This document shows, in pieces, positions 38,557-59,305 of a DNA stretch of 64,000 nucleotides. A model generated the notes under the pieces. That model was not told where the DNA came from and did no database searches. It worked only from the letters and a program-made list of their open reading frames with translations. The translations under genes and the position numbers were made by a program. The DNA is from Paracoccus zhejiangensis (lineage in GTDB: Bacteria; Pseudomonadota; Alphaproteobacteria; Rhodobacterales; Rhodobacteraceae), in contig NZ_CP025430.1 of assembly GCF_002847445.1 (NCBI RefSeq), forward strand, positions 2,170,001-2,234,000, given 5' to 3'. The first letter of the stretch is position 1, and each line of letters starts with the position of its first letter.

Positions 38557-39120
38557 ATGACCCCGCTCGAAACCGTCTTTGCCGCCATCGACAAGGCCAA
38601 TGCCGCCGATCCGACGCTGGAGCACGGCCACCCCGCCGCGCTGCTTTATGGCGAGCGGATGACGGCCGAGCAGGTGCGGCTGTTCCCCGAAGCCTCGGAC
38701 GTCTTGTGCATCGCTTGCCGTGGCCAGCATATCGAGCGCTGGAAGCTGCCGCGCCAGGATTACCCGATGGACCGCGCCGGCTATCTGCAATGGCGGACCG
38801 AGCAGGGCCGCCGCCATGCCAACCGCGTCGGCGGCATCATGGAGGAAGCCGGCTATCACGGTGACGAGATCGACCGCGCCCGCAAGATGCTGACCAAGCA
38901 GGGGATCAAGCGCGATCCCGAGGTGCAGGCGCTGGAAGACGTGATCTGCTTTACCTTCATCCGCTGGTATCTGGGCGATTTCATGGCCGATCAGCCCGAC
39001 GAGAAGATGCCCCGCATCATCGAGTTGACCGCCCGCAAGATGTCCGCCGATGGACGCGCCCGGGTGCTGGCGGAATTCCCCATGCCTGATGAGTTCGCGC
39101 AGTTCTTCCGCGCCGAGTGA
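38557..39120 (+). CDS. DUF4202 domain protein
   Basis: A 187-residue soluble protein of the DUF4202 family. It has a His/Cys-rich segment (CIACRGQHIERWKLPR near 48-63) and a conserved ICFTFIRWYLGDF near 130-142, suggesting an HD-like or metal-binding helical fold, though this is inference. AAAAGGA precedes the ATG. It lies 64 bases after the FAD oxidoreductase and 7 bases before the CbiX-like gene, so the three may be co-transcribed. Confidence 0.78.
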   Translation: MTPLETVFAAIDKANAADPTLEHGHPAALLYGERMTAEQVRLFPEASDVLCIACRGQHIERWKLPRQDYPMDRAGYLQWRTEQGRRHANRVGGIMEEAGYHGDEIDRARKMLTKQGIKRDPEVQALEDVICFTFIRWYLGDFMADQPDEKMPRIIELTARKMSADGRARVLAEFPMPDEFAQFFRAE

Positions 39121-39127
39121 TCCGGCG

Positions 39128-39817
39128 ATGAAAGCCGTCATCGTTGCCCATGGCCAGCCCGGCGATCCCGGGCCGCAGGAACAGGCCATCCGCGATCTGG
39201 CGGCGCAGGTTGCGAAGCATGATCCCGGTTGCACGGTCACGGGTGCCACGCTCGCCATGCCCGGCGCGCTGGCGGCGGTGGTTGACGCGGACAGCCTGAT
39301 CTATCCGATGTTCATGGCCGAGGGCTGGTTCACGCGGAAACAATTGCCGAAGAAGCTGGCCGAGGCCGGCGCGACCGAGGCCCGCATCCTGCTGCCCTTC
39401 GGCACCGATCCGGCGCTACCCGGACTGATCGTGACCAAGGCCCATGCGGCTGCGGCAACCGAAGGCTGGGCGCCCGCCGAGACCACCCTGCTGCTTTCTG
39501 CCCATGGCTCGCAGGTGAGCCAAGCCAGTTTCACCATCACGACGGCCATCGCCGGTCAGATCGCCCCGCAATTTGCCCGCGTCGTCACTGGCTTTGTCGA
39601 GCAGGAGCCCTTCATCGCGGATGCCGCGCGGGGGCTCGATCGCGCGGTTCACCTGCCGCTGTTCGCGCTGCGGGCCGAGCATGTGACCGATGACCTTCCG
39701 GCGGCGCTGGACGGTGCAGGCTTCACCGGCCCGCGCCTCGATCCGATCGGGCTGGCACCCGAGGTTCCCAGCCTCATCGCCGCCGCGATCCGGGCAGAAA
39801 TTTTAAACTTGAAATAA
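39128..39817 (+). CDS. CbiX/SirB-type chelatase-like protein
   Basis: A 229-residue protein with two CbiX-type halves: VAHGQ (His8) in the first and LSAHGSQ (His126) in the second. CbiX/SirB enzymes insert Co or Fe into sirohydrochlorin using such histidines. The C-terminus (EILNLK) is encoded by unusually AT-rich DNA that also forms the upstream region of the next operon. No cobalamin genes are adjacent, so the chelatase activity is unproven. Confidence 0.75.
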
Positions 39818-39861: not shown

Positions 39862-42147
39862 ATGAAGATTCTCTGCCTCGGCGGCGGGCCTGCGGGTCTT
39901 TATTTCGCCATCTCGATGAAGCTGCGCGACCCGTCGCATCAGGTGACGGTGATCGAGCGCAACCGCGCCAATGACACCTTCGGCTGGGGCGTCGTGCTGT
40001 CGGATGACGCGCTGGATCGGATGCAGCGGAACGACCCGCAATCCACCGATGCGATCCGCGAGAACTTCATCTACTGGGACGATATCGCGGTGATCCGCGA
40101 CGGCCATCGCGCCGTTTCGGGCGGGCATGGGTTCGCCGGCATCGGCCGCAAGAAGATGCTGACCATCCTGCAGGCCCGCGCGACCGAGCTGGGCGTCGAG
40201 ATGCGCTTCGAGACCGAGTTCAAGGCTGCCGAGGACTATCGCCGCGACTATGATCTGGTGGTCGCCTCGGACGGGCTGAACAGCACCGTGCGGCGCGAAT
40301 ATGCGGAGGTGTTCAAGCCGGATATCGACATGCGGCTGGCGAAGTTCGTCTGGCTGGGCACCAACCAGAAATTCAACGACGCCTTCACCTTCATCTTCGA
40401 GAAGACCCGGCATGGCTGGGTCTGGGCGCATGTCTATCAGTTCGACGACGAGACCGCGACCTTCATCGTCGAATGCAGCCAGCAGACATGGGAGAATTTC
40501 GGCTTCGAGGGCATGAGCAAGGAGGAGATCGTCGAGACCTGTCGCGAGGTCTTCGCGGGTCATTTGGGCGGTCATCCCCTGATGTCCAACGCCGCCCATC
40601 TGCGCGGCTCGGCGGTGTGGATGAATTTTCCACGGGTGATCTGCGAGCGTTGGTATGAAGGCAATGTCGTGCTGATGGGCGATGCGGCGGCGACCGGGCA
40701 TTTCTCGATCGGCTCTGGCACGCGGCTGGCCTTTGACAGCGCCATCGCGCTGGCTGAGTACCTGCATTCGGAACCGACAATGGAAGCCGCCTTCGAACGT
40801 TACCAAGAGGAACGCCGGCTCGAGGTGCTGCGCCTGCAATCGGCGGCGCGCAACAGCCTTGAATGGTTCGAGCAGGTCGAACGCTATTTCGATCTCGACC
40901 CGGTCCAGTTCACCTATTCGCTGCTGACCCGCAGCCAGCGGATCAGCCATGAGAACCTGCGCCTGCGCGATCCCGACTGGGTGCGCCGCGCCGAGGACTG
41001 GTTTCAGCAACAGGTCGGCGGCCAGCCCGGCCGCGCGCCGATGTTCGCGCCCTATCAGCTGGGCGGGATGCGGCTGAAGAACCGCATCGTTGTCTCGCCC
41101 ATGGCGCAATACAAGGCCATCGACGGCAAGCCGACCAACTGGCATCTGGTGCATTACGGCGAGCGCGCCAAGGGCGGCGCGGGTCTAGTCTATACCGAGA
41201 TGACCTGCGTCTCGCCCGAGGGCCGGATCACGCCGGGCTGCCCCGGCCTCTATGCGCCCGAGCACGAGGCGGCGTGGCGCGAGATCGTCGATTTCGTGCA
41301 TCAGGAAACCGACGCCAAGATCTGCTGCCAGATCGGTCACTCGGGCCGCAAGGGCTCGACCCGGATCGGGTGGGAGGGGATGGACCAGCCGCTTGCGGAC
41401 GATAACTGGCCGCTTCTCTCGGCCTCGGCGATCCCGTGGTCGGATCGCAATGCCGTCCCCGAGGCGATGACGCGCGCGCAGATGGAGGAGGTCCGCGATC
41501 AGTTTGTCGCGGCGACCCGGATGGCGGCGCGGGCGGGCTTCGACATGGTGGAGCTGCACGCGGCCCATGGCTACCTGATCTCCAGCTTCATCTCGCCCCT
41601 CTCGAACCAGCGGACGGACGAGTTTGGCGGCTCGCTGGAAAACCGGATGCGCTACCCGCTCGAGGTGTTTGCGGCCATGCGCGCGGCCTGGCCCGCTGAG
41701 AAACCCATCTCGGTCCGGATCAGTGCCTGCGACTGGGTCGGCGATCATGGCGTCACCCCGGAAGAGGCGGTCAGCATCGCCCGGATGTTCCGCGAGGCCG
41801 GGGCCGATATCATCGATGTTTCCGCTGGTCAGACCAGCGTGGAGGGGCGGCCGGTCTATGGCCGGATGTTCCAGACGCCGTTTTCCGACCGCATCAGGAA
41901 CGAGGCCGGCATCGCCACCATGGCGGTCGGCAATATCTACGAGCCCGACCATGTGAACGGCATCCTCATGGCGGGCCGCGCTGATCTGGTCTGCCTCGCC
42001 CGGCCGCATCTGAACGACCCCTACTGGACGCTGCACGCCGCCACCGCGCTCGGGGACAAGGCGACGAGCTGGCCCCTGCCCTACCTCGCCGGGCGCGATC
42101 AGGCGCGGCGGCTGGCCGAGCGTGAAGCCGAGGCGATCCGGGCATGA
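39862..42147 (+). CDS. Anthraniloyl-CoA (2-aminobenzoyl-CoA) monooxygenase/reductase, bifunctional
   Basis: A 761-residue fusion of a class A FAD monooxygenase (GGGPAG at 7-12, [14 protein letters not shown] near 273-286) and an Old Yellow Enzyme reductase from about residue 393 ([33 protein letters not shown]). This architecture is that of 2-aminobenzoyl-CoA monooxygenase/reductase, which hydroxylates and then reduces the ring to 2-amino-5-oxocyclohex-1-enecarboxyl-CoA; salicylyl-CoA 5-hydroxylase relatives share it. The nearby aryl-CoA ligase and tryptophan dioxygenase favour anthranilate as substrate. A GGGGGAG site precedes the ATG. It heads a nine-gene operon. Confidence 0.88.
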
Positions 42148-42869
42148 GCCGCGTCCTCATCACCGGAGGCGGATCGGGCACCGGCGCCGACATGGCCCGC
42201 GCCTTTGCCGAAGCCGGGCATGAGGTGGTGATCACCGGGCGCCGCCTCGACCGGCTGACCGACGTGGCAGAGGGGCCGATCCGCGCGGTTCAGGGCGATG
42301 TCACCGACGCGGACAGCGTGGCCGCGATGTTCCGCGAGGCCGGGCCCTGTCCGATCGTCATCGCCAATGCCGGCGTGGCCGAGGCCGCGCCCTTCGGCAA
42401 GGTGACGCTGGAGCATTGGCAACGGATGATCGCCACGAACCTGACCGGGGTTTTCCTGACCTTCCAACAAGGACTGGCGCAGATGGGTGAAGGCGGGCGG
42501 CTGATCGCCATCTGCTCGATCACGGGACTGCGCGGAGCCGCCTATGCCGCGCCCTATGCCGCCAGCAAGCACGGCGTGATGGGGCTCGTGCGCTCGCTGG
42601 CGCTGGAGGTGGCGAAGAAGGGCATCACAGTCAATGCCATCTGCCCGGGCTATCTCGATACCGAGATGACCGGCCGCAGCATCGCCAATATCATGGAGAA
42701 GACGGGGCGCTCGCGCGACGAGGCCATTGCCGCGCTGGCCGGGAAGAACCCGCAGGGCCGGCTGATCCCGCCCGCAGAGGTGACGGCGGCGGCCCTGTGG
42801 CTGGCCTCGCCCGCGGCGGCCTGCGTCAACGGTCAGGCGATCACCCTCGATGGGGGCGAAAGCGCATGA
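42144..42869 (+). CDS. Short-chain dehydrogenase/reductase
   Basis: A 241-residue SDR with cofactor site TGGGSGTG at 7-14, NAGVAEAAP, catalytic Ser in CSITG and YAASK (Tyr and Lys). The start overlaps the preceding stop (ATGA), so it is co-translated with the monooxygenase/reductase. In this setting it could reduce the ring ketone or oxidise a hydroxyacyl-CoA intermediate; the exact step is not established. Confidence 0.9.
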
Positions 42870-43300
42870 GCGATCTGTCGAAGCGCCGGCTGAAGCTGTG
42901 GATCCGCCTCTTGGGCGTGACCCGCGGGGCGGAAAACCACCTGCGCGACTACCTTCGCCGCGAACATGCCACCACCCTGCCCCGGTTCGATGTCATGGCG
43001 GCTTTGTGGAGGCGGCGCGACGGCGTGACCATGTCGGAACTGTCGCGGATGTTGCTGGTGTCGAACGGCAATGCCACCGCCGTCGTCGACCGGCTGGAAG
43101 CCGATGGCCTCGCCCGGCGCGAGGCCGAGGATGGCGACCGCCGCCGCATCCGCGTGCGCCTGACCCCGGCAGGGCTGACCAGCTTCGAGGCGATGGCCAC
43201 CGGCCACGAGGCCGAGGTGGATGCGATCTTCGACCGGCTGAGCGACAACGATCTAGACACGATGCGCGAGATTCTGACCCGCGCAGGAAAGGCAACATGA
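42866..43300 (+). CDS. MarR-family transcriptional regulator
   Basis: A 144-residue winged-helix repressor: [45 protein letters not shown] contains the recognition helix and wing, with the conserved DRR motif. It is embedded in the operon by ATGA overlaps on both sides, which suggests self-limiting control of the pathway. The ligand is probably an aryl-CoA or anthranilate by analogy with other aromatic-catabolism MarR proteins; that is inference. Confidence 0.92.
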
Positions 43301-44109
43301 AACCGATCCAGATGGCGGGCCTCTGCCCCCAGCATTTCCTGTGGAGCGTCAGCGACCGCATCGCCGTGATCCGGCTGAACCGGCCCGAGCGCAAGAACCC
43401 GCTGACCTTCGACAGCTATGCCGAACTCGGCCGCACCTTCCGCGATCTGGCCCATGCCAGCGATGTCGATGTGGTGGTGCTGGCCAGCAATGGCGGCAAT
43501 TTCAGCTCGGGCGGTGATGTGCACGAGATCATCGGCCCGCTGGTCGGGATGGAGATGCCGGAACTGCTGGCCTTCACCCGCATGACAGGGGAACTGGTCA
43601 AGGCGATGATCCATTGCGGGAAGCCGGTGATCGCAGCGGTCGAGGGCATCTGCGTCGGCGCCGGGGCGATCATGGCCATGGCCAGCGACCTGCGGCTGGC
43701 CGCGCCCTCGGCCAAGGCGGCGTTCCTGTTCACCAAGGTCGGGCTGGCAGGCTGCGACATGGGCGCCTGCGCCATGCTGCCGCGCATCGTCGGTCAGGGG
43801 CGGGCGGCAGAGCTGCTCTATACCGGCCGGGTGCTACGCGCCGAAGAGGGCGAGCGCTGGGGCTTCTGGAACAGCCTGCACGAGGATGTCGAGGCAGCGG
43901 CGATGGATCTGGCGCGGGCCATAGCGGCGGGGCCTGTCTGGGCGCATGGCATCACCAAGACCCAGCTGAACCAGGAATGGAACATGGGGCTGGACCAGGC
44001 GATCGAATCCGAGGCGCAGGCGCAGGCCATCTGCATGCAGACCCGCGATTTCGAACGCGCCTATCGCGCCTTCGTCGCCAAGGAGACGCCGGTTTTCGAG
44101 GGTAACTGA
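43297..44109 (+). CDS. Enoyl-CoA hydratase/isomerase family protein
   Basis: A 270-residue crotonase-fold enzyme. The oxyanion loops are seen as [11 protein letters not shown] near 68-78 and [21 protein letters not shown] near 112-132. The residues at the usual catalytic Glu positions are not obviously both present ([11 protein letters not shown]), so it may be an isomerase, hydrolase or C-C lyase rather than a simple hydratase. The ATG overlaps the marR stop. A likely role is in opening or hydrating the dearomatised ring. Confidence 0.88.
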
Positions 44110-44113
44110 CAGA

Positions 44114-44163
44114 GCGGGGGCGCTTCGCCCCCCGCACCCCCAGAGGATATTTGGACCAGGTGA
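44114..44163 (+). repeat. Intergenic repeat element, copy B (hairpin plus conserved tail)
   Basis: GCGGGGGCG-CTTCG-CCCCCCGC is followed by CACCCCCAGAGGATATTTGG and ends directly at the next ATG. It is related to copy A at 6841. It is the only sizeable gap inside the operon; the hairpin could trim or attenuate the transcript between the hydratase and dehydrogenase genes. Confidence 0.55.
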
Positions 44164-45294
44164 ATGGATAGAAGCTTTCTGGACTGGCCATTTTTCGAGG
44201 ACCGCCATCGCGAATTGGCGGCGGGGCTGGAGGCGTGGGCCTCGGCCAATCTGCCGGTCGACCATGGCGATGTCGATGCGGCCTGCCGCGGGCTGGTGCA
44301 GGCGCTTGGCGCGGGCGGCTGGCTGAAGCACTCGGGCGGTGAGGCGCTGGACATCCGCAGCCTCTGCCTGATCCGCGAGACGCTGGCGCGCCATGACGGG
44401 CTGGCGGATTTCGCCTTTGCCATGCAGGGGCTGGGCATGGGGGCAGTGACGTTGTTCGGCACGCCCGGGCAACGGCAATGGCTCGACCGGACCCGGGCGG
44501 GCGAGGCGATCTCGGCCTTCGCGCTGACCGAGCCGGGATCGGGCTCGGACGTGGCGCGGACTGCAACCACGGCTGTCCGCGACGGTGGCGACTGGGTGTT
44601 GAACGGCGAAAAGACCTATATCTCCAACGGCGGCATCGCCGATCTCTACGTGATCTTCGCCCGCACCGGCGAGGCGCCGGGGGCCAAGGGCCTGTCGGCC
44701 TTCCTGCTGCCCGCCGACACGCCGGGGCTGGAAGTGGTGGGCCGCATCGAGGTCATGGCACCGCATCCCTTGGCGCATCTGCGGCTGACCAATCTGCGCC
44801 TTCCCGAAACCGCGCTGATCGGCACGGCAGGGGGCGGCTTCCGCGTCGCCATGACGGTTCTGGATCATTTCCGCCCGACCGTCGGCGCCGCCGCCCTGGG
44901 CTTTGCCCGTCGCGCGCTCGACGAGGCGCTGGCGCGGGTACGCGAGAGACAGCTTTTCGGCGCGCCGATGGCCGAGCTGCAGATGGTTCAGGGCCATATC
45001 GCCGAGATGGCGCTGAAGGTCGATGCCGCGGCGCTCTTGGTCTATCGCGCCGCATGGGCCAAGGATCAGGGCGCGCCGCGCATCACCCGCGAGGCGGCGA
45101 TGGCCAAGCTTTATGCCACCGAAGCCGCACAAGAGGTGATCGATCAGGCGCTGCAGCTGTTCGGTGGCGATGGCGTCCGGGTCGGCATGGCAGTTGAAAG
45201 CCTCTACCGCGAGATCCGGGCCTTGCGCATCTATGAAGGGGCCAGTGACGTGCAGAGGCTGGTCATCGCCCGTTCCGTATTAGGGGGAGACTGA
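44164..45294 (+). CDS. Acyl-CoA dehydrogenase family protein
   Basis: A 376-residue flavoprotein with the ACAD pattern: [13 protein letters not shown] near 120-132 binds substrate and FAD, and the C-terminal [18 protein letters not shown] carries the usual catalytic Glu position in YEGAS. It would desaturate an alicyclic acyl-CoA. It follows copy B of the repeat; TGATG links its stop to the thioesterase start. Confidence 0.9.
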
Positions 45295-45683
45295 TGATCT
45301 ATACCCGCACCATCCCAATCGAATTCTGCCATTGCGACCCGGCGGGGATCGTCTTCTATCCGCGCTATGCCGAGATGGTGAATCACATGGTAGAAAATTA
45401 TTTCATCGATGTGCTCGGCTATTCCTTTGCCGAGATGATGGCGGCAGGTCAGGGGATGCCCACCGCCCGGCTGGAGGTCGATTTCCGCAAGCCCTCGCGG
45501 CTTGGCGACCGGCTCAACTGGACGCTGGCGGTCGAGCATCTGGGTCGCAGCAGCGCGCGCTTTCTGGTCCGGGCCGAAGACCGGATCGAGGCGCGCAGCA
45601 CAGTCGTGTGGATGGAACGCGACTTCACCCCCTCGCCCTGGCCCGAGGCGTTCCGGGCGAAACTGGAGGCCTATCATGCATGA
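45294..45683 (+). CDS. 4-hydroxybenzoyl-CoA-type thioesterase
   Basis: A 129-residue hotdog-fold thioesterase with HCDPAGIVFYPRY near 13-25; the Asp15 position matches the catalytic Asp of the Pseudomonas 4-hydroxybenzoyl-CoA thioesterase. In aromatic-CoA operons such enzymes remove dead-end CoA esters and free CoA. The start overlaps the dehydrogenase stop, and its stop lies inside the RidA-like gene. Confidence 0.9.
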   Translation: MIYTRTIPIEFCHCDPAGIVFYPRYAEMVNHMVENYFIDVLGYSFAEMMAAGQGMPTARLEVDFRKPSRLGDRLNWTLAVEHLGRSSARFLVRAEDRIEARSTVVWMERDFTPSPWPEAFRAKLEAYHA

Positions 45684-46071
45684 TGCCCTGCACCCCGCCA
45701 ACTGGAAGCGCGCCGTGGGCTATGCCAATGGCATTTCGGCCCGTGGGCGGATGATCTTTACCGGCGGGCTGGTCGGATGGGATGCCGACCAGCAATTCCT
45801 GACCGATGATTTCGCCCTGCAGGTGCGGCAGGTGCTGGAGAACATCGTGGCCGTGCTGGCCGAGGGCGGGGCCGGGCCGCAGCATCTGGTGCGGCTGACC
45901 TGGTATGTCACGGACAAGCGCGACTATCTCGGTGCGCTGCGCGAGGTGGGCGCGGCCTATCGCGAGGTAATCGGGCGGCATTATCCGGCCATGGCGCTGG
46001 TTCAGGTGGCAGCATTGGTCGAGGACCGCGCCAAGGTCGAGATCGAGGCCACCGCCGTCATCCCCGACTGA
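45676..46071 (+). CDS. RidA (YjgF)-family protein lacking the canonical Arg
   Basis: A 131-residue YjgF/RidA-fold protein with IFTGGLVGWD near 27-36 and VEIEATAVIP near the end (Glu of the active site). RidA enzymes hydrolyse reactive enamines/imines to carbonyl plus ammonia. At the position of Arg105 of E. coli-type RidA this protein has Ala113 (VAALVED against VARLPKD), so it fits an Arg-less Rid subgroup. Its place in an operon whose ring-reduction product is an enamine suggests a tailored role. It overlaps the thioesterase gene by 8 bases. Confidence 0.88.
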   Translation: MHDALHPANWKRAVGYANGISARGRMIFTGGLVGWDADQQFLTDDFALQVRQVLENIVAVLAEGGAGPQHLVRLTWYVTDKRDYLGALREVGAAYREVIGRHYPAMALVQVAALVEDRAKVEIEATAVIPD

Positions 46072-46092
46072 CCGCTTTGGGAGGAGCAAGAG

Positions 46093-47712
46093 ATGCAACA
46101 TCTGGGACCAAGCGGGCATCAGGACAGCTTCGCGCGCGACAACCTGCCGCCCGCCGCCGACTGGCCGCAAATCGATTTGTCGGGCTTTGACTATCCCGAC
46201 TGGCTGAACATCGGCGCCGAACTGACCGATCGCATGGTCGATCACGGCTTTGGCGACCGCAACGCGCTGATCGGCAATGGCCGGGCGCGCACCTACAAGG
46301 AACTGACCGACTGGACCAACCGGCTGGCTCATGCGCTTGTCGAGGATTACGGGGTGAAACCCGGCAACCGGGTGCTGATCCGTTCCGCCAACAACCCGGC
46401 GATGGTGGCCTGCTGGCTGGCGGCGACCAAGGCGGGGGCGGTGGTGGTCAATACCATGCCGATGCTGCGCGCGGGCGAGCTGGGCAAGATCATCGACAAG
46501 GCCGAGGTGACCCATGCGTTGTGCGACACGCGGCTGATGGACGAGCTGGTGGCGGCGGCCAAGGATTCAGCCTTCCTCAAGACCGTGGTGGGCTTCGATG
46601 GCACCGCCAATCACGATGCTGAACTGGACCGGGCGGCACTGACCAAGTCGGTGCGCTTTGACGCGGTCAGGACCGGGCGCGACGATGTGGCGCTGCTGGG
46701 GTTCACCAGCGGCACCACGGGTGAGCCCAAGGCCACGATGCATTTCCACCGTGACCTGCTGATCATCGCCGATGGCTATGCCAAGGAGGTGCTGGCGGTC
46801 CGGCCCGATGATGTCTTTGTGGGCAGCCCGCCCCTGGCCTTCACCTTCGGGCTGGGCGGCATGGCGGTGTTTCCGCTGCGCTTCGGGGCCTCGGCGGTGC
46901 TGTTGGAAAACGCCTCGCCGCCGAACATGATCGAGATCATCCAGAACCACCGGGCAACCATCTGCTTCACCGCGCCGACCGCTTACCGGGTGATGCTCAG
47001 GGCGATGGAGGAAGGCGCGGACCTCAGCAGCCTGCGCGCCGCAGTCAGCGCCGGCGAGACCCTGCCGGCCCCGGTCTGGGAGGAGTGGCGGCAGAAGACC
47101 GGCAAGCCGATGCTGGACGGGATCGGCTCGACCGAACTGCTGCATATCTTCATCACCAACCGCTTCGATGACAGCTATCCCGGCTGCACCGGCCGCCCGG
47201 TCGGCGGCTATCGCGCCAAGATCGTCGACGAGGCGGGCCGCGACCTGCCGCAGGGCGAGCCGGGGCGGCTGGCGGTGATAGGGCCGACCGGCTGCCGCTA
47301 TCTGAACGACGCGCGGCAGGGCGAGTATGTTCAGAACGGCTGGAACATCACCGGCGACACCTTCTGGCAGGACGAGGACGGGCGTTTCCATTTCGCCGCG
47401 CGCTCGGACGACATCATCCTGTCGGGCGGCTACAACATCGCCGGGCCGGATGTCGAGGCCGCGCTTCTGGCGCATGACGACGTGCTGGAATGCGCGGTCA
47501 TCGGCGTGGCGGACGAGGATCGCGGCCAGATCGTTCAGGCGCATGTGGTGCTGGCGCAAGGGGTCGCGCCCGACGAGGCCACGCGGCAGCGGCTGCAGGC
47601 GCATTGCAAGGCCGTGATCGCGCCCTACAAATATCCGCGCAGCCTGCTCTTTACCGACGCCCTGCCCAAGACCCAGACCGGCAAGATCCAGCGATTCAGG
47701 TTGAAATCATGA
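46093..47712 (+). CDS. 2-aminobenzoate (anthranilate)-CoA ligase / benzoate-CoA ligase family
   Basis: A 539-residue AMP-forming ligase that would make anthraniloyl-CoA from anthranilate, ATP and CoA. The P-loop [17 protein letters not shown] is near 202-218, the adenine region [13 protein letters not shown] near 337-349, and the catalytic Lys is in KTQTGKIQR near the C-terminus. The N-terminal [16 protein letters not shown] is shared with benzoate-CoA ligases. GGGAGGAG precedes the ATG after a 21-base gap. The substrate is inferred from the operon. Confidence 0.87.
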
Positions 47713-48530
47713 GCTATGACCCCGAGGGCGAAGGCGCCCGCATGTCCTTCAGGGACCGCATGTCCTATGGCGATTACCTGGGGCTTGATGCCATCCTGAC
47801 TGCGCAGCACCCGCTGTCGCAGGCCCATGACGAGATGCTGTTCATCGTCCAGCACCAGACCAGCGAGCTCTGGATGAAGCTGGCGCTGCACGAGATGGGC
47901 GCGGCGCGCAGCCGGATCGCGGCGGGCGACCTGCAACCGGCCTTCAAGATGCTGACCCGCGTGGCCCGGATCATGGAGCAGCTGAATTCCGCATGGGATG
48001 TGCTGCGCACCATGACCCCCAGCGAATATACCGAGTTCCGGCAATCCCTTGGCGAAAGCAGCGGCTTCCAGTCGCAGCAATACCGGATGATCGAATTCGT
48101 CGCCGGCAACCGCAACATGGCGATGGTCCGCCCGCACGAGCATCGGCCCGAGCTGGTCGCGCCGTTGCTGGCGGAAGTGGCGCGGCCATCCCTCTACGAC
48201 ACCGTTCTGGCGCGGCTGGCGGCGGCGGGCTTCGACGTGCCGCCGCGCGAGAGGCTGGACCAGCCGCACCAGCCCGACCCCAGGGCCCGCGCAGCTTGGG
48301 CCGAGGTCTATCGCAATCCCGGCACATATTGGGAGCTTTACGAGCTGGCCGAGAAGCTGGTGGATTTCGAGGATTACTTCCGCCGCTGGCGCTTCAACCA
48401 TGTCACCACGGTCGAGCGCATCATCGGCTTCAAGCGCGGCTCGGGCGGCACCTCGGGGGTCAGCTATCTGCGGCGGATGCTGGATGTGGTGCTGTTCCCC
48501 GATCTTTGGGAATTGCGGACGGACCTGTGA
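47709..48530 (+). CDS. kynA: Tryptophan 2,3-dioxygenase
   Basis: A heme dioxygenase that opens the indole ring of L-tryptophan to N-formylkynurenine. The 273-residue protein shows the family N-terminus ([16 protein letters not shown]), the [16 protein letters not shown] helix and the heme-ligand His231 in [19 protein letters not shown], ending [10 protein letters not shown]. Its ATG overlaps the ligase stop (ATGA), tying the first step of tryptophan breakdown to anthranilate activation. Confidence 0.95.
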
Positions 48531-57264: not shown

Positions 57265-58452
57265 TCAGGTGACGGCGGCCTTGCGGTGAAACTCGGGCTT
57301 GTCCCATGATCCGTCACGCAGAAGCCGCGCCAGAACATCGACCGCGCGGGCCACATCATCCAGCCCGTTATAAAGCGGCGCGAAGCCGAAGCGCAGCACG
57401 TCGGGCGCGCGGAAATCGCCGATCACCCCCTCGGCAATCAGCGCCTGCATCACCGCATAGGCCTGCGGGTGGCGGAAGCCCACCTGCGAGCCGCGCAGCG
57501 CCGGATCGCGCGGCGAGTTCAGCGTGACACCCGGACAATTCGCCTCGACCCCGGCGATGAAGGCCTCGGTCAACTCGATCGAGCGGGCGCGCAGATCGGC
57601 CAGCGCGACGCCCTCCCAGACATCCAGCGCCGCGTCGAGCGCGGTCATGGCGATGACCGGCGGCGTGCCGACCCGCATCCGCTCGATCCCCGACGCGGGG
57701 CGATAGCCCAGGTCAAAGGCAAAGGGCGCGGCATGTCCCATCCAGCCCTGCAGGATCGGCTCGGCCGCCTCGGCATGGCGGGGATGGGTCCAGATGAAGG
57801 CCGGCGCCCCCGGCCCGCCGTTCAGGTATTTATAGGTGCAGCCGACGGCGAAATCGGCATCTGCACCCAAAAGGTCCACGTCCACTGCCCCCGCCGAATG
57901 CGCCAGATCCCAGACCGTCAGCGCGCCGGCCTCATGCGCGCGGGCGGTCAGACCGGCCATGTCGTGACGGCGGCCGGTGCGGTAATCGACCTCGGTAATC
58001 ATCAGCACCGCGAGATCGGGGCCGATGGCATCGGCCACGGCCTCGGGCTCGACCACCCGCAATTCGGCCCCGACGGCGCGGGCCAGCCCTTCGGCGACGT
58101 AAAGATCCGAGGGGAAATTGCCGCTGTCGGACAGGATCACCCGGCGCTCGGGGCGCAGCGCGCGGGCGGCGCTGACCGCCTGAAACACCTTGATCGACAG
58201 CGTGTCGCCCATGACCACCTGCCCCGGCCCCGCGCCGATCAGCCGTGCCACCCGGTCACCGACGCGGCGGGGCTGTTCATACCAGCCGGCGCTGTTCCAG
58301 CCCCGGATCAGTTCTTCCGCCCATTCGTCCTGCATCATCCGCGCCACGCGATCCCGCGCGGCCAGGGGCATCGGACCCAGCGAATTGCCATCCAGGTAGG
58401 TCACCCCTTCGGGCAGGTGAAAGGCCGCTCGGGTGCGGTTGAAGTCGGTCAT
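57265..58452 (-). CDS. kynU: Kynureninase
   Basis: A PLP enzyme that cleaves kynurenine to anthranilate and alanine. The 395-residue protein starts FNRTRAAFHLPEGVTYLDGNSLGPMP, typical of the family, with the Schiff-base Lys208 in CTYKYLNGGPG and GWMGHAAPF plus FRAPDVLRFGFAPLYN near the C-terminus. It is divergent from the kynurenine formamidase gene with a 61-base shared upstream region. Its product feeds the anthranilate-CoA operon at 39.9-48.5 kb. Confidence 0.95.
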   Translation of the reverse strand: MTDFNRTRAAFHLPEGVTYLDGNSLGPMPLAARDRVARMMQDEWAEELIRGWNSAGWYEQPRRVGDRVARLIGAGPGQVVMGDTLSIKVFQAVSAARALRPERRVILSDSGNFPSDLYVAEGLARAVGAELRVVEPEAVADAIGPDLAVLMITEVDYRTGRRHDMAGLTARAHEAGALTVWDLAHSAGAVDVDLLGADADFAVGCTYKYLNGGPGAPAFIWTHPRHAEAAEPILQGWMGHAAPFAFDLGYRPASGIERMRVGTPPVIAMTALDAALDVWEGVALADLRARSIELTEAFIAGVEANCPGVTLNSPRDPALRGSQVGFRHPQAYAVMQALIAEGVIGDFRAPDVLRFGFAPLYNGLDDVARAVDVLARLLRDGSWDKPEFHRKAAVT

Positions 58453-58513
58453 GGCTGGTCCCCCTTGACCCGACGCTATCAGCCGGGTCTGCTGGGTGAA
58501 AGGGGAAGAAATC

Positions 58514-59305
58514 ATGCTGTATCAGGTCACTGACTGGGACGACGCCTATGCCAATACGATCCATATCCCGCAGGGTGAGTCCTATCCCGACCGCTTCGCG
58601 GCGGCGGCGGCGGCCTTTCGCGACAGCGCGCGGATCGAGCCGTTGGGTCTGGGCCAAATTTTCCTGCCCGAAGGCGAGCCTCAGGGCCTCGCCGTCTTCA
58701 TTCATGGCGGCTACTGGCTGCATTCCAACCCCAGCTTCTGGTCGCATCTTGCCGCCGGTCCGCTGGCCCGGGGCTGGGCCGTCGCCCTGCCCGGCTATCC
58801 GCTGACGCCCACGGTCCGCATTGCCGAGATCACCGCCCATGTCGCCCGCGATCTGACCGAGGCCGCCGCCCGCATTCCGGGCCCCATCGCGCTCACCGGC
58901 CATTCGGCGGGCGGGCATCTGGCGGCGCGGATGATCTGTGACGATGGCACCCTACCCGACGAGGTTGCCGCGCGGGTGGCGCGCTGTGTGCCGATCTCGG
59001 GCCTCTTCGATCTGCGCCCGCTGATGCGCACGGCGATGAACGCGACGCTGCATCTGGACCTGGCCGAGGCCATGGCGGAAAGCCCCGCGCTGCTGACGCC
59101 CCGCCCCAGCATTCCGGTCACCGCATGGGTCGGCGGGGCCGAGCGCCCCGAGTTCCTGCGCCAGTCGCGGCTTCTGGCAGATATCTGGGCCGGGCTTGGC
59201 GCGGCGACCGACTGGGTCATCGATCCCGGACGCCACCATTTCGACGTGATCGAGGGGCTGAGTGATCCGGACAGCCCGCTGACTCGCGCGCTGCTGGGGC
59301 GTTGA
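58514..59305 (+). CDS. Kynurenine formamidase, alpha/beta-hydrolase type
   Basis: A 263-residue alpha/beta hydrolase with the oxyanion motif FIHGGYW near 62-68 and the nucleophile in TGHSAGGHLAA near 121-131. The catalytic His is probably in GRHHFDVIEG near 239-248. This is the layout of animal and yeast arylformamidases, not of the cyclase-fold bacterial KynB. Its divergent pairing with kynU supports N-formylkynurenine as substrate. GGGGAAG precedes the ATG. Confidence 0.83.
   Translation: MLYQVTDWDDAYANTIHIPQGESYPDRFAAAAAAFRDSARIEPLGLGQIFLPEGEPQGLAVFIHGGYWLHSNPSFWSHLAAGPLARGWAVALPGYPLTPTVRIAEITAHVARDLTEAAARIPGPIALTGHSAGGHLAARMICDDGTLPDEVAARVARCVPISGLFDLRPLMRTAMNATLHLDLAEAMAESPALLTPRPSIPVTAWVGGAERPEFLRQSRLLADIWAGLGAATDWVIDPGRHHFDVIEGLSDPDSPLTRALLGR

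Follow-up and report, generated by a model that had tools for sequence, protein, structure and literature searches.

The present analysis concerns a stretch of 64,000 nucleotides from Paracoccus zhejiangensis (contig NZ_CP025430.1, positions 2,170,001 to 2,234,000; hereafter the window), in which a putative operon of nine genes at 39862-48530 appears to connect tryptophan dioxygenase with the degradation of anthranilate as its coenzyme A (CoA) thioester, anthraniloyl-CoA. A candidate operator precedes the operon, and two further genes, probably also of tryptophan breakdown, lie 9-10 kb downstream. With positions counted within the window, the features are the following.

39800-39815, no strand: candidate MarR operator ATTTTAAACTTGAAAT, with 2 mismatches to the palindrome ATTTCAAGCTTGAAAT
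39862-42147, forward strand: ACMR, an anthraniloyl-CoA (2-aminobenzoyl-CoA) monooxygenase fused to an old-yellow-enzyme (OYE) reductase, assigned by profile NF006101
42144-42869, forward strand: short-chain dehydrogenase/reductase (SDR), matching SDR families, none above cut-off among the 25 matches listed
42866-43300, forward strand: MarR-family regulator, with weak matches to MarR-type models, below their cut-offs
43297-44109, forward strand: crotonase lacking both hydratase glutamates and having an invariant Asp154 (NF006107), proposed to be a ring-opening hydrolase
44164-45294, forward strand: acyl-CoA dehydrogenase with Glu358; its family matches, including cyclohexane-1-carbonyl-CoA dehydrogenase, are below cut-offs
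45294-45683, forward strand: hot-dog thioesterase of the YbgC/4-hydroxybenzoyl-CoA type (TIGR00051 weak, below cut-off)
45676-46071, forward strand: RidA-like protein (TIGR00004 weak, below cut-off), proposed to be an enamine hydrolase acting on a CoA-bound ring
46093-47712, forward strand: anthranilate-CoA ligase by homology, with 4wv3 as closest solved relative and a score just below the TIGR02262 cut-off
47709-48530, forward strand: kynA, tryptophan 2,3-dioxygenase (TIGR03036 above cut-off)
57265-58515, reverse strand: kynU, kynureninase (TIGR01814, 281 bits for a cut-off of 246.4), the start being possibly an inner ATG at 58452
58514-59305, forward strand: probable kynurenine formamidase, an alpha/beta hydrolase with the motif HGGYW, divergent from kynU

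All nine frames of the operon are open, each with an ATG start and a stop codon, and their order and coordinates are those described in the earlier note. The tight packing that it emphasized also holds, but its count of five overlaps plus ATGA junctions does not, as there are six overlaps (4, 4, 4, 1, 8 and 4 bases), four of which are ATGA. Two gaps remain, of 54 bases between crotonase and dehydrogenase and of 21 bases between the RidA-like gene and the ligase. The former (44110-44163) harbors a GC-rich inverted repeat, recognized by eye, followed by CCCCAGAGGATATTTGGACCAG, an interspersed repeat within the operon with 8 genome copies at up to 3 mismatches, the operon copy included (reversed control, 0). 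Profile scans placed ACMR at 1288.6 bits on NF006101 (cut-off 1078), the crotonase at 459.9 on NF006107 (cut-off 330) and KynA at 400.2 on TIGR03036 (cut-off 390.7), whereas the ligase fell narrowly short on TIGR02262 (365.1 for 375.25).

Related loci were compared in two sets. The first comprised 75 stretches of 14-19 kb, some of them cut, or 73 once the 3' part of the window itself and the paralogue of the genome were removed; the second comprised 80 named loci (61 longer than 17 kb), the best 80 of 591 in a scan led by a betaproteobacterial-type sequence. The SDR has the Ser, Tyr and Lys typical of such enzymes in 63 of 63 orthologues, and Glu358 of the acyl-CoA dehydrogenase, at the usual catalytic place, is kept in 62/62 orthologues of the first set and 64/64 of the second. 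Asp15 of the thioesterase, a functional residue in such enzymes, is kept in all 27 orthologues. As previously noted from the sequence, no thiolase is encoded among the nine genes; seven proteins above the TIGR01930 cut-off are found elsewhere in the genome.

The enzymes that would deliver anthranilate to this operon are probably encoded nearby, although the earlier note had missed them. A genome search for kynureninase found kynU inside the window, and the divergent frame beside it probably encodes the kynurenine formamidase: its product carries HGGYW, a motif linked to formamidases, and scores 63 bits to the Drosophila kynurenine formamidase 4e11 and 245 bits to 2pbl, a "putative esterase". 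Its relative in Ruegeria pomeroyi, 47.7% identical, sits between kynA and ACMR. A cyclase-type KynB was also searched for in the genome and rejected, the best match being 45 bits, under the cut-off. Since kynU and a probable formamidase are both in the window, the steps from tryptophan to anthranilate are encoded within 12 kb of the last gene of the operon. The link from tryptophan through anthranilate to anthraniloyl-CoA, as first suggested from the operon, is supported by these genes and by the family-wide co-occurrence of ACMR and kynA described below, and so more strongly than the earlier note could show. PF06052, used for the 3-hydroxyanthranilate route, was unmatched in the genome but likewise in every control genome, so that this search does not establish the absence of that route.

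The palindrome ATTTCAAGCTTGAAAT was found, exact or nearly so, by inspecting the 140 bp ahead of ACMR in 10 relatives and in the window, where ATTTTAAACTTGAAAT is its sole match at up to 3 mismatches (0.04 expected). Among 48 close loci (ACMR at least 69.5% identical), it occurs at this stringency and within 200 bp in 42, always starting 58-101 bp before ACMR, for 0.11 expected from the remainder of the same loci; it is present in 32 of the 38 held-out loci (the 10 discovery loci being excluded) and in 18 of 107 more distant loci (0.2 expected). Genome-wide, 9 places match at up to 3 mismatches, compared to 1 for the reversed control. The palindrome is probably the operator of the MarR regulator, whose binding there is suggested by the place of its gene in the operon. 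Because ATTTTAAACTTGAAAT overlaps the final codons of the upstream frame 39050-39817, the control region of the operon lies in the coding end of its neighbour. Six of the 48 loci have an extra match to ATTTCAAGCTTGAAAT (up to 2 mismatches) elsewhere in the locus; in L080, L081, L117, L118 and L131, a second palindrome lies about 7.3-7.7 kb after the ACMR start, 1.2-1.4 kb past the RidA-like gene, where it possibly marks another gene of the regulon.

We estimate at about 0.72 the probability that the operon, with kynU and the formamidase downstream, forms a tryptophan catabolic route via anthraniloyl-CoA, with the late steps proposed here and under MarR control. KynA, the formamidase and KynU would convert tryptophan to anthranilate, the ligase would activate it to anthraniloyl-CoA, and ACMR would yield 2-amino-5-oxocyclohex-1-ene-carbonyl-CoA, a reaction known in Azoarcus and attributed here from family membership. 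The RidA-like protein may then hydrolyse the enamine of the ring, giving 2,5-dioxocyclohexane-carbonyl-CoA and ammonia, and the Asp-type crotonase may open the ring by a hydrolytic (retro-Claisen) reaction to 4-oxopimeloyl-CoA. The acyl-CoA dehydrogenase and the SDR could act on the open chain, a thiolase from elsewhere in the genome could perform the last cleavage, and the thioesterase could free CoA from a product or a dead end. Acting at the palindrome, the regulator would keep the operon repressed until released, probably by the binding of an aryl-CoA. That the steps after ring reduction are poorly defined, as the earlier note stated, agrees with PMC9007349, which omitted tryptophan breakdown through ACMR from a pathway tool "due to a lack of knowledge".

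The middle of this pathway, hydrolytic and not beta-oxidative, with a RidA-like protein of altered residues acting on a CoA-bound cyclic enamine before the retro-Claisen crotonase, is advanced more tentatively than the route itself, at well under even odds. Ile125 and Phe145 of the crotonase occupy the places of Glu109 and Glu129 of E. coli PaaF, the catalytic pair of hydratases. In all 131 orthologues, 65 from the first set (55% identity or more) and 66 from the second, position 125 is Ile or Met and position 145 is Phe, and Asp154 is invariant (65/65 and 66/66), in samples selected by identity to the window proteins, which favours alike residues here and in the RidA-like counts below. As neither hydratase glutamate is kept, the crotonase is unlikely to be an enoyl-CoA hydratase. 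Asp154 aligns with an Asp of PaaG, an isomerase, where it is catalytic and corresponds to the nucleophile of 4-chlorobenzoyl-CoA dehalogenase. An identity with BadI was ruled out, the Asp being misaligned by two columns and TIGR03210 not above cut-off; this BadI model exceeded its cut-off in 2 of 142 genomes, the source genome not among them.

For the RidA-like protein, a threshold of 44% identity gave 53 orthologues in the first set and 60 in the second. Both sets keep the counterparts of Tyr17, Gly31 and Glu120 without exception, while the place of Arg105 is taken by Met in 53/53 and 59/60 (Ile once; thus Met in 112/113), and also in the 37% identical protein of the Arthrobacter plasmid pAL1. 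In E. coli TdcF, Arg105 is paired with the 2-oxobutanoate carboxylate in a salt bridge, and the keto group has contacts with Cys107 and Glu120 (PMC4960622). The loss of Arg105 fits a substrate whose carboxylate would be bound in a CoA thioester. Moreover, anthranilate-grown Arthrobacter cells contain a C7H8O4 CoA ester, for which the authors suggest cyclohexanedione-carboxyl-CoA (PMC3534580). This ester would be the product expected from the RidA-like step; as it may also arise non-enzymatically, it supports the step and does not prove it.

The strongest competitor to this hydrolytic middle is that the later steps are ordinary beta-oxidation by a hydratase, dehydrogenases and a thiolase, as in the review literature: PMC4539516 places beta-oxidation enzymes after ACMR, citing work on Azoarcus, the operon does encode a crotonase, an acyl-CoA dehydrogenase and an SDR, and a hydratase and a thiolase could be supplied from elsewhere in the genome. 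Nevertheless, the hydratase glutamates are found in none of the 131 crotonase orthologues and a RidA-like protein is foreign to beta-oxidation. With such a crotonase and no thiolase, a textbook round of beta-oxidation is not encoded in the operon, and we consider this alternative rather unlikely. For the same two reasons, it is doubtful that every later step has a candidate in the operon, as the earlier note suggested.

The association of kynA with ACMR extends across the family. ACMR was above cut-off in 39 of 299 genomes of the phylum and in 51 of 149 of the family, source genome included, and kynA matched above 250 bits in 67 of the latter. Both were present in 47 family genomes, ACMR alone in 4, kynA alone in 20 and neither in 78 (Fisher p 5e-18, kinship uncorrected), that is, kynA in 47/51 genomes with ACMR versus 20/98 without. 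One of the four ACMR-only genomes (G319) has kynA fragments at a contig, and three of the kynA-only genomes (G083, G432, G435) were scored as without ACMR on a partial or sub-threshold match. Since kynU exceeded its cut-off in 121/149 family genomes, its presence by itself says little.

At the level of the locus, kynA (at least 55% identity; a 32% match in L111 being left out) was present in 21 of the 73 stretches of the first set, kynU in 13 and a relative of the formamidase in 14, when kynA would be expected by chance in about 0.5% of random stretches (19 kb in 4 Mb). Of these 21 stretches, 13 have kynA after ACMR on the same strand, 6 have it upstream on the opposite strand and two (L070 and L071) have it downstream on the opposite strand. 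The run ACMR-SDR-MarR-crotonase-dehydrogenase recurs in 48/73 stretches, the MarR gene thus standing between SDR and crotonase, and in 28/80 named loci (some of them short), which indicates that the grouping is not due to chance. The exact eight-gene order, ending thioesterase-RidA-ligase, is found in 8/73 and 6/80 loci, and none of these 14, among 153 examined, has kynA in the stretch. Hence no other locus was seen to have kynA as ninth gene of the exact order, although in the family kynA frequently stands next to clusters ordered differently.

Several known clusters resemble this operon. The abm clusters of Azoarcus evansii reportedly comprise, according to a study of 2001, the ligase, ACMR, three beta-oxidation-type enzymes, a MarR regulator and a RidA-like "translation inhibitor". 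The window operon likewise has a fused ACMR, an adjacent ligase (by homology), beta-oxidation-type genes, MarR and a RidA-like gene; compared to the reported gene content of abm, it has no transporter gene and additionally has a thioesterase and kynA. The ligase and ACMR reactions of A. evansii are described in PMC4539516. The one locus from Aromatoleum in the set of 80 (L208) gave a match for ACMR alone. Plasmid 1 of Paracoccus denitrificans PD1222 (PDEN_RS25280-RS25315) shares all eight genes and their order, with identities of 78.7% for the ligase, 79.5% for the crotonase, 73% for RidA and 47.7% for the thioesterase, but in its 22-kb stretch kynA is absent and a branched-chain-type ABC transporter comes next. 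On the megaplasmid of R. pomeroyi DSS-3 (SPO_RS21895-RS21860), kynA and an alpha/beta hydrolase are divergent beside an ACMR-to-RidA cluster; there, kynA is on the opposite strand, a cupin replaces the thioesterase and the ligase precedes RidA.

The lower pathway of Arthrobacter sp. Rue61a pAL1 (NC_009453) includes a ligase, ACMR, the RidA-like protein and a thioesterase-domain protein. It differs by an annotated FAH-family hydrolase and cupin, and no crotonase, acyl-CoA dehydrogenase or SDR is annotated in its 17-kb stretch, for which the gene table declares itself incomplete. Enzymes of the FAH family split carbon-carbon bonds in diketones, and this hydrolase would suit a hydrolytic ring opening in Arthrobacter too. 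Entry to the pathway is from quinaldine and not from tryptophan (PMC3534580). The cupins of R. pomeroyi (L240:15538-15990) and pAL1 (L241:8560-9042) have no detectable mutual similarity at E 1e-3. For Cupriavidus metallidurans, PMC8879955 lists abm genes alongside kyn genes. No description of kynA inside an ACMR operon was found in the excerpts of open-licence literature searched. The eight-gene module itself was already known, given the identical order in P. denitrificans and the closely similar set of enzymes reported for Azoarcus; as far as we looked, what is new is the ACMR/kynA co-occurrence count, the operator and the residue patterns, the literature search on the latter two having been slight.

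These comparisons bear on a second alternative, according to which the operon serves general scavenging of anthranilate from indole, quinolines or the environment and kynA joined it by chance. The transporter genes that follow the eight genes in P. denitrificans, the absence of kynA near all 14 exact-order loci and its presence in only 3/61 long loci of the mostly betaproteobacterial second set (kynU, 4/61) speak in its favour. On the other side, the ligase and kynA frames share an ATGA, kynA is close to the cluster in 21/73 stretches and co-occurs with ACMR in 47 of 51 genomes, and kynU and the formamidase candidate accompany it in the same window. We judge this alternative improbable. The eight-gene unit is nonetheless a module for anthranilate, which some lineages have joined to kynA, and the assertion that the operon is dedicated to tryptophan rather than being an anthranilate unit went too far, in view of P. 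denitrificans and the 14 loci.

That anthranilate is the substrate is suggested by several comparisons. Against solved structures, the ligase scores best with 4wv3, an "Anthranilate-CoA ligase" (280.6 bits), but the benzoate-CoA ligase 2v7b is so close a second (269.9) that this match by itself leaves the substrate undecided. The ligase is also 54.7% identical to that of pAL1, and ACMR 49.5% identical to its pAL1 counterpart, the nearest named ACMR relatives coming from Paracoccus. ARUE_113p00220, which by its position beside ACMR is taken to be the pAL1 ligase compared here, was reported to have anthranilate-CoA ligase activity, and anthranilate supports growth of Arthrobacter sp. Rue61a whereas salicylate, gentisate and catechol do not (PMC3534580). 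A 2-aminobenzoyl-CoA cluster was genetically verified for anthranilate breakdown during indole degradation (PMC6221969).

A salicylyl-CoA (gentisate) pathway is suggested by the title of NF006101, "bifunctional salicylyl-CoA 5-hydroxylase/oxidoreductase", but was rejected as very unlikely given the reductase half of ACMR, which resembles OYE-type structures (the N-terminal half resembling VioD), the nearby kyn genes, the similarity of the ligase to anthranilate enzymes, the growth pattern of the Arthrobacter with homologous genes (on anthranilate, not on salicylate or gentisate), and a separate paralogue of the N-terminal half elsewhere in the genome. This second ACMR-type hydroxylase (L134:6799-9643; G000:C1 3053961-3056805) is reductase-less, scoring 308.8 bits on NF006101 over the N-terminal half only, and is preceded by a ligase that most resembles dihydroxybenzoate-AMP ligases, below cut-off; nearby frames resemble a TRAP transporter by eye, and this locus is perhaps the true salicylyl-CoA-type pathway. 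Equally slight is the chance that anthranilate proceeds to catechol through the benzoate-type dioxygenase, the CoA operon being minor: the search for a catechol-type anthranilate dioxygenase that the earlier note had recommended found no AntA above cut-off, as one of the two Rieske alpha subunits in the genome is BenA (805.7 bits on TIGR03229, cut-off 780.95; 498 on the anthranilate model TIGR03228, cut-off 671.9) and the other, which also fails the anthranilate model, is closest to glycine betaine monooxygenase, below the cut-off of the latter model.

Besides the kynA counts of the exact-order and betaproteobacterial loci and the selection of orthologues by identity, the following points weigh against the proposed route or its steps. 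A PaaG-type Asp154 is as compatible with an isomerase as with a hydrolase, and a BadI homologue and MenB have an Asp two columns before it. The place of Cys107 in the RidA-like protein is Cys in only 1 of 53 orthologues, and its gene is present in 53/73 stretches and 54/61 long named loci, not in all. The formamidase candidate exceeds the cut-off of NF058665, "hormone-sensitive lipase" (NCBIfam), and the palindrome was not found at kynU/formamidase. In G175, the sole additional member of the genus that was sampled, separate contigs carry kynA and ACMR. The late steps are ordered by conjecture from 4-oxopimeloyl-CoA onward.

Genes of this operon are probably misnamed in public records as "enoyl-CoA hydratase" and "salicylyl-CoA 5-hydroxylase". 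With the residue patterns, two steps of the pathway can be tested on individual purified proteins, and the candidate operator provides a handle on the regulon. If the hydrolytic middle is true, a member of the RidA family would be a dedicated catabolic enzyme acting on a CoA thioester, common to Proteobacteria and Arthrobacter. Finally, with ACMR and kynA together in 47 of the 149 sampled genomes, tryptophan breakdown through anthraniloyl-CoA is probably common in the family.

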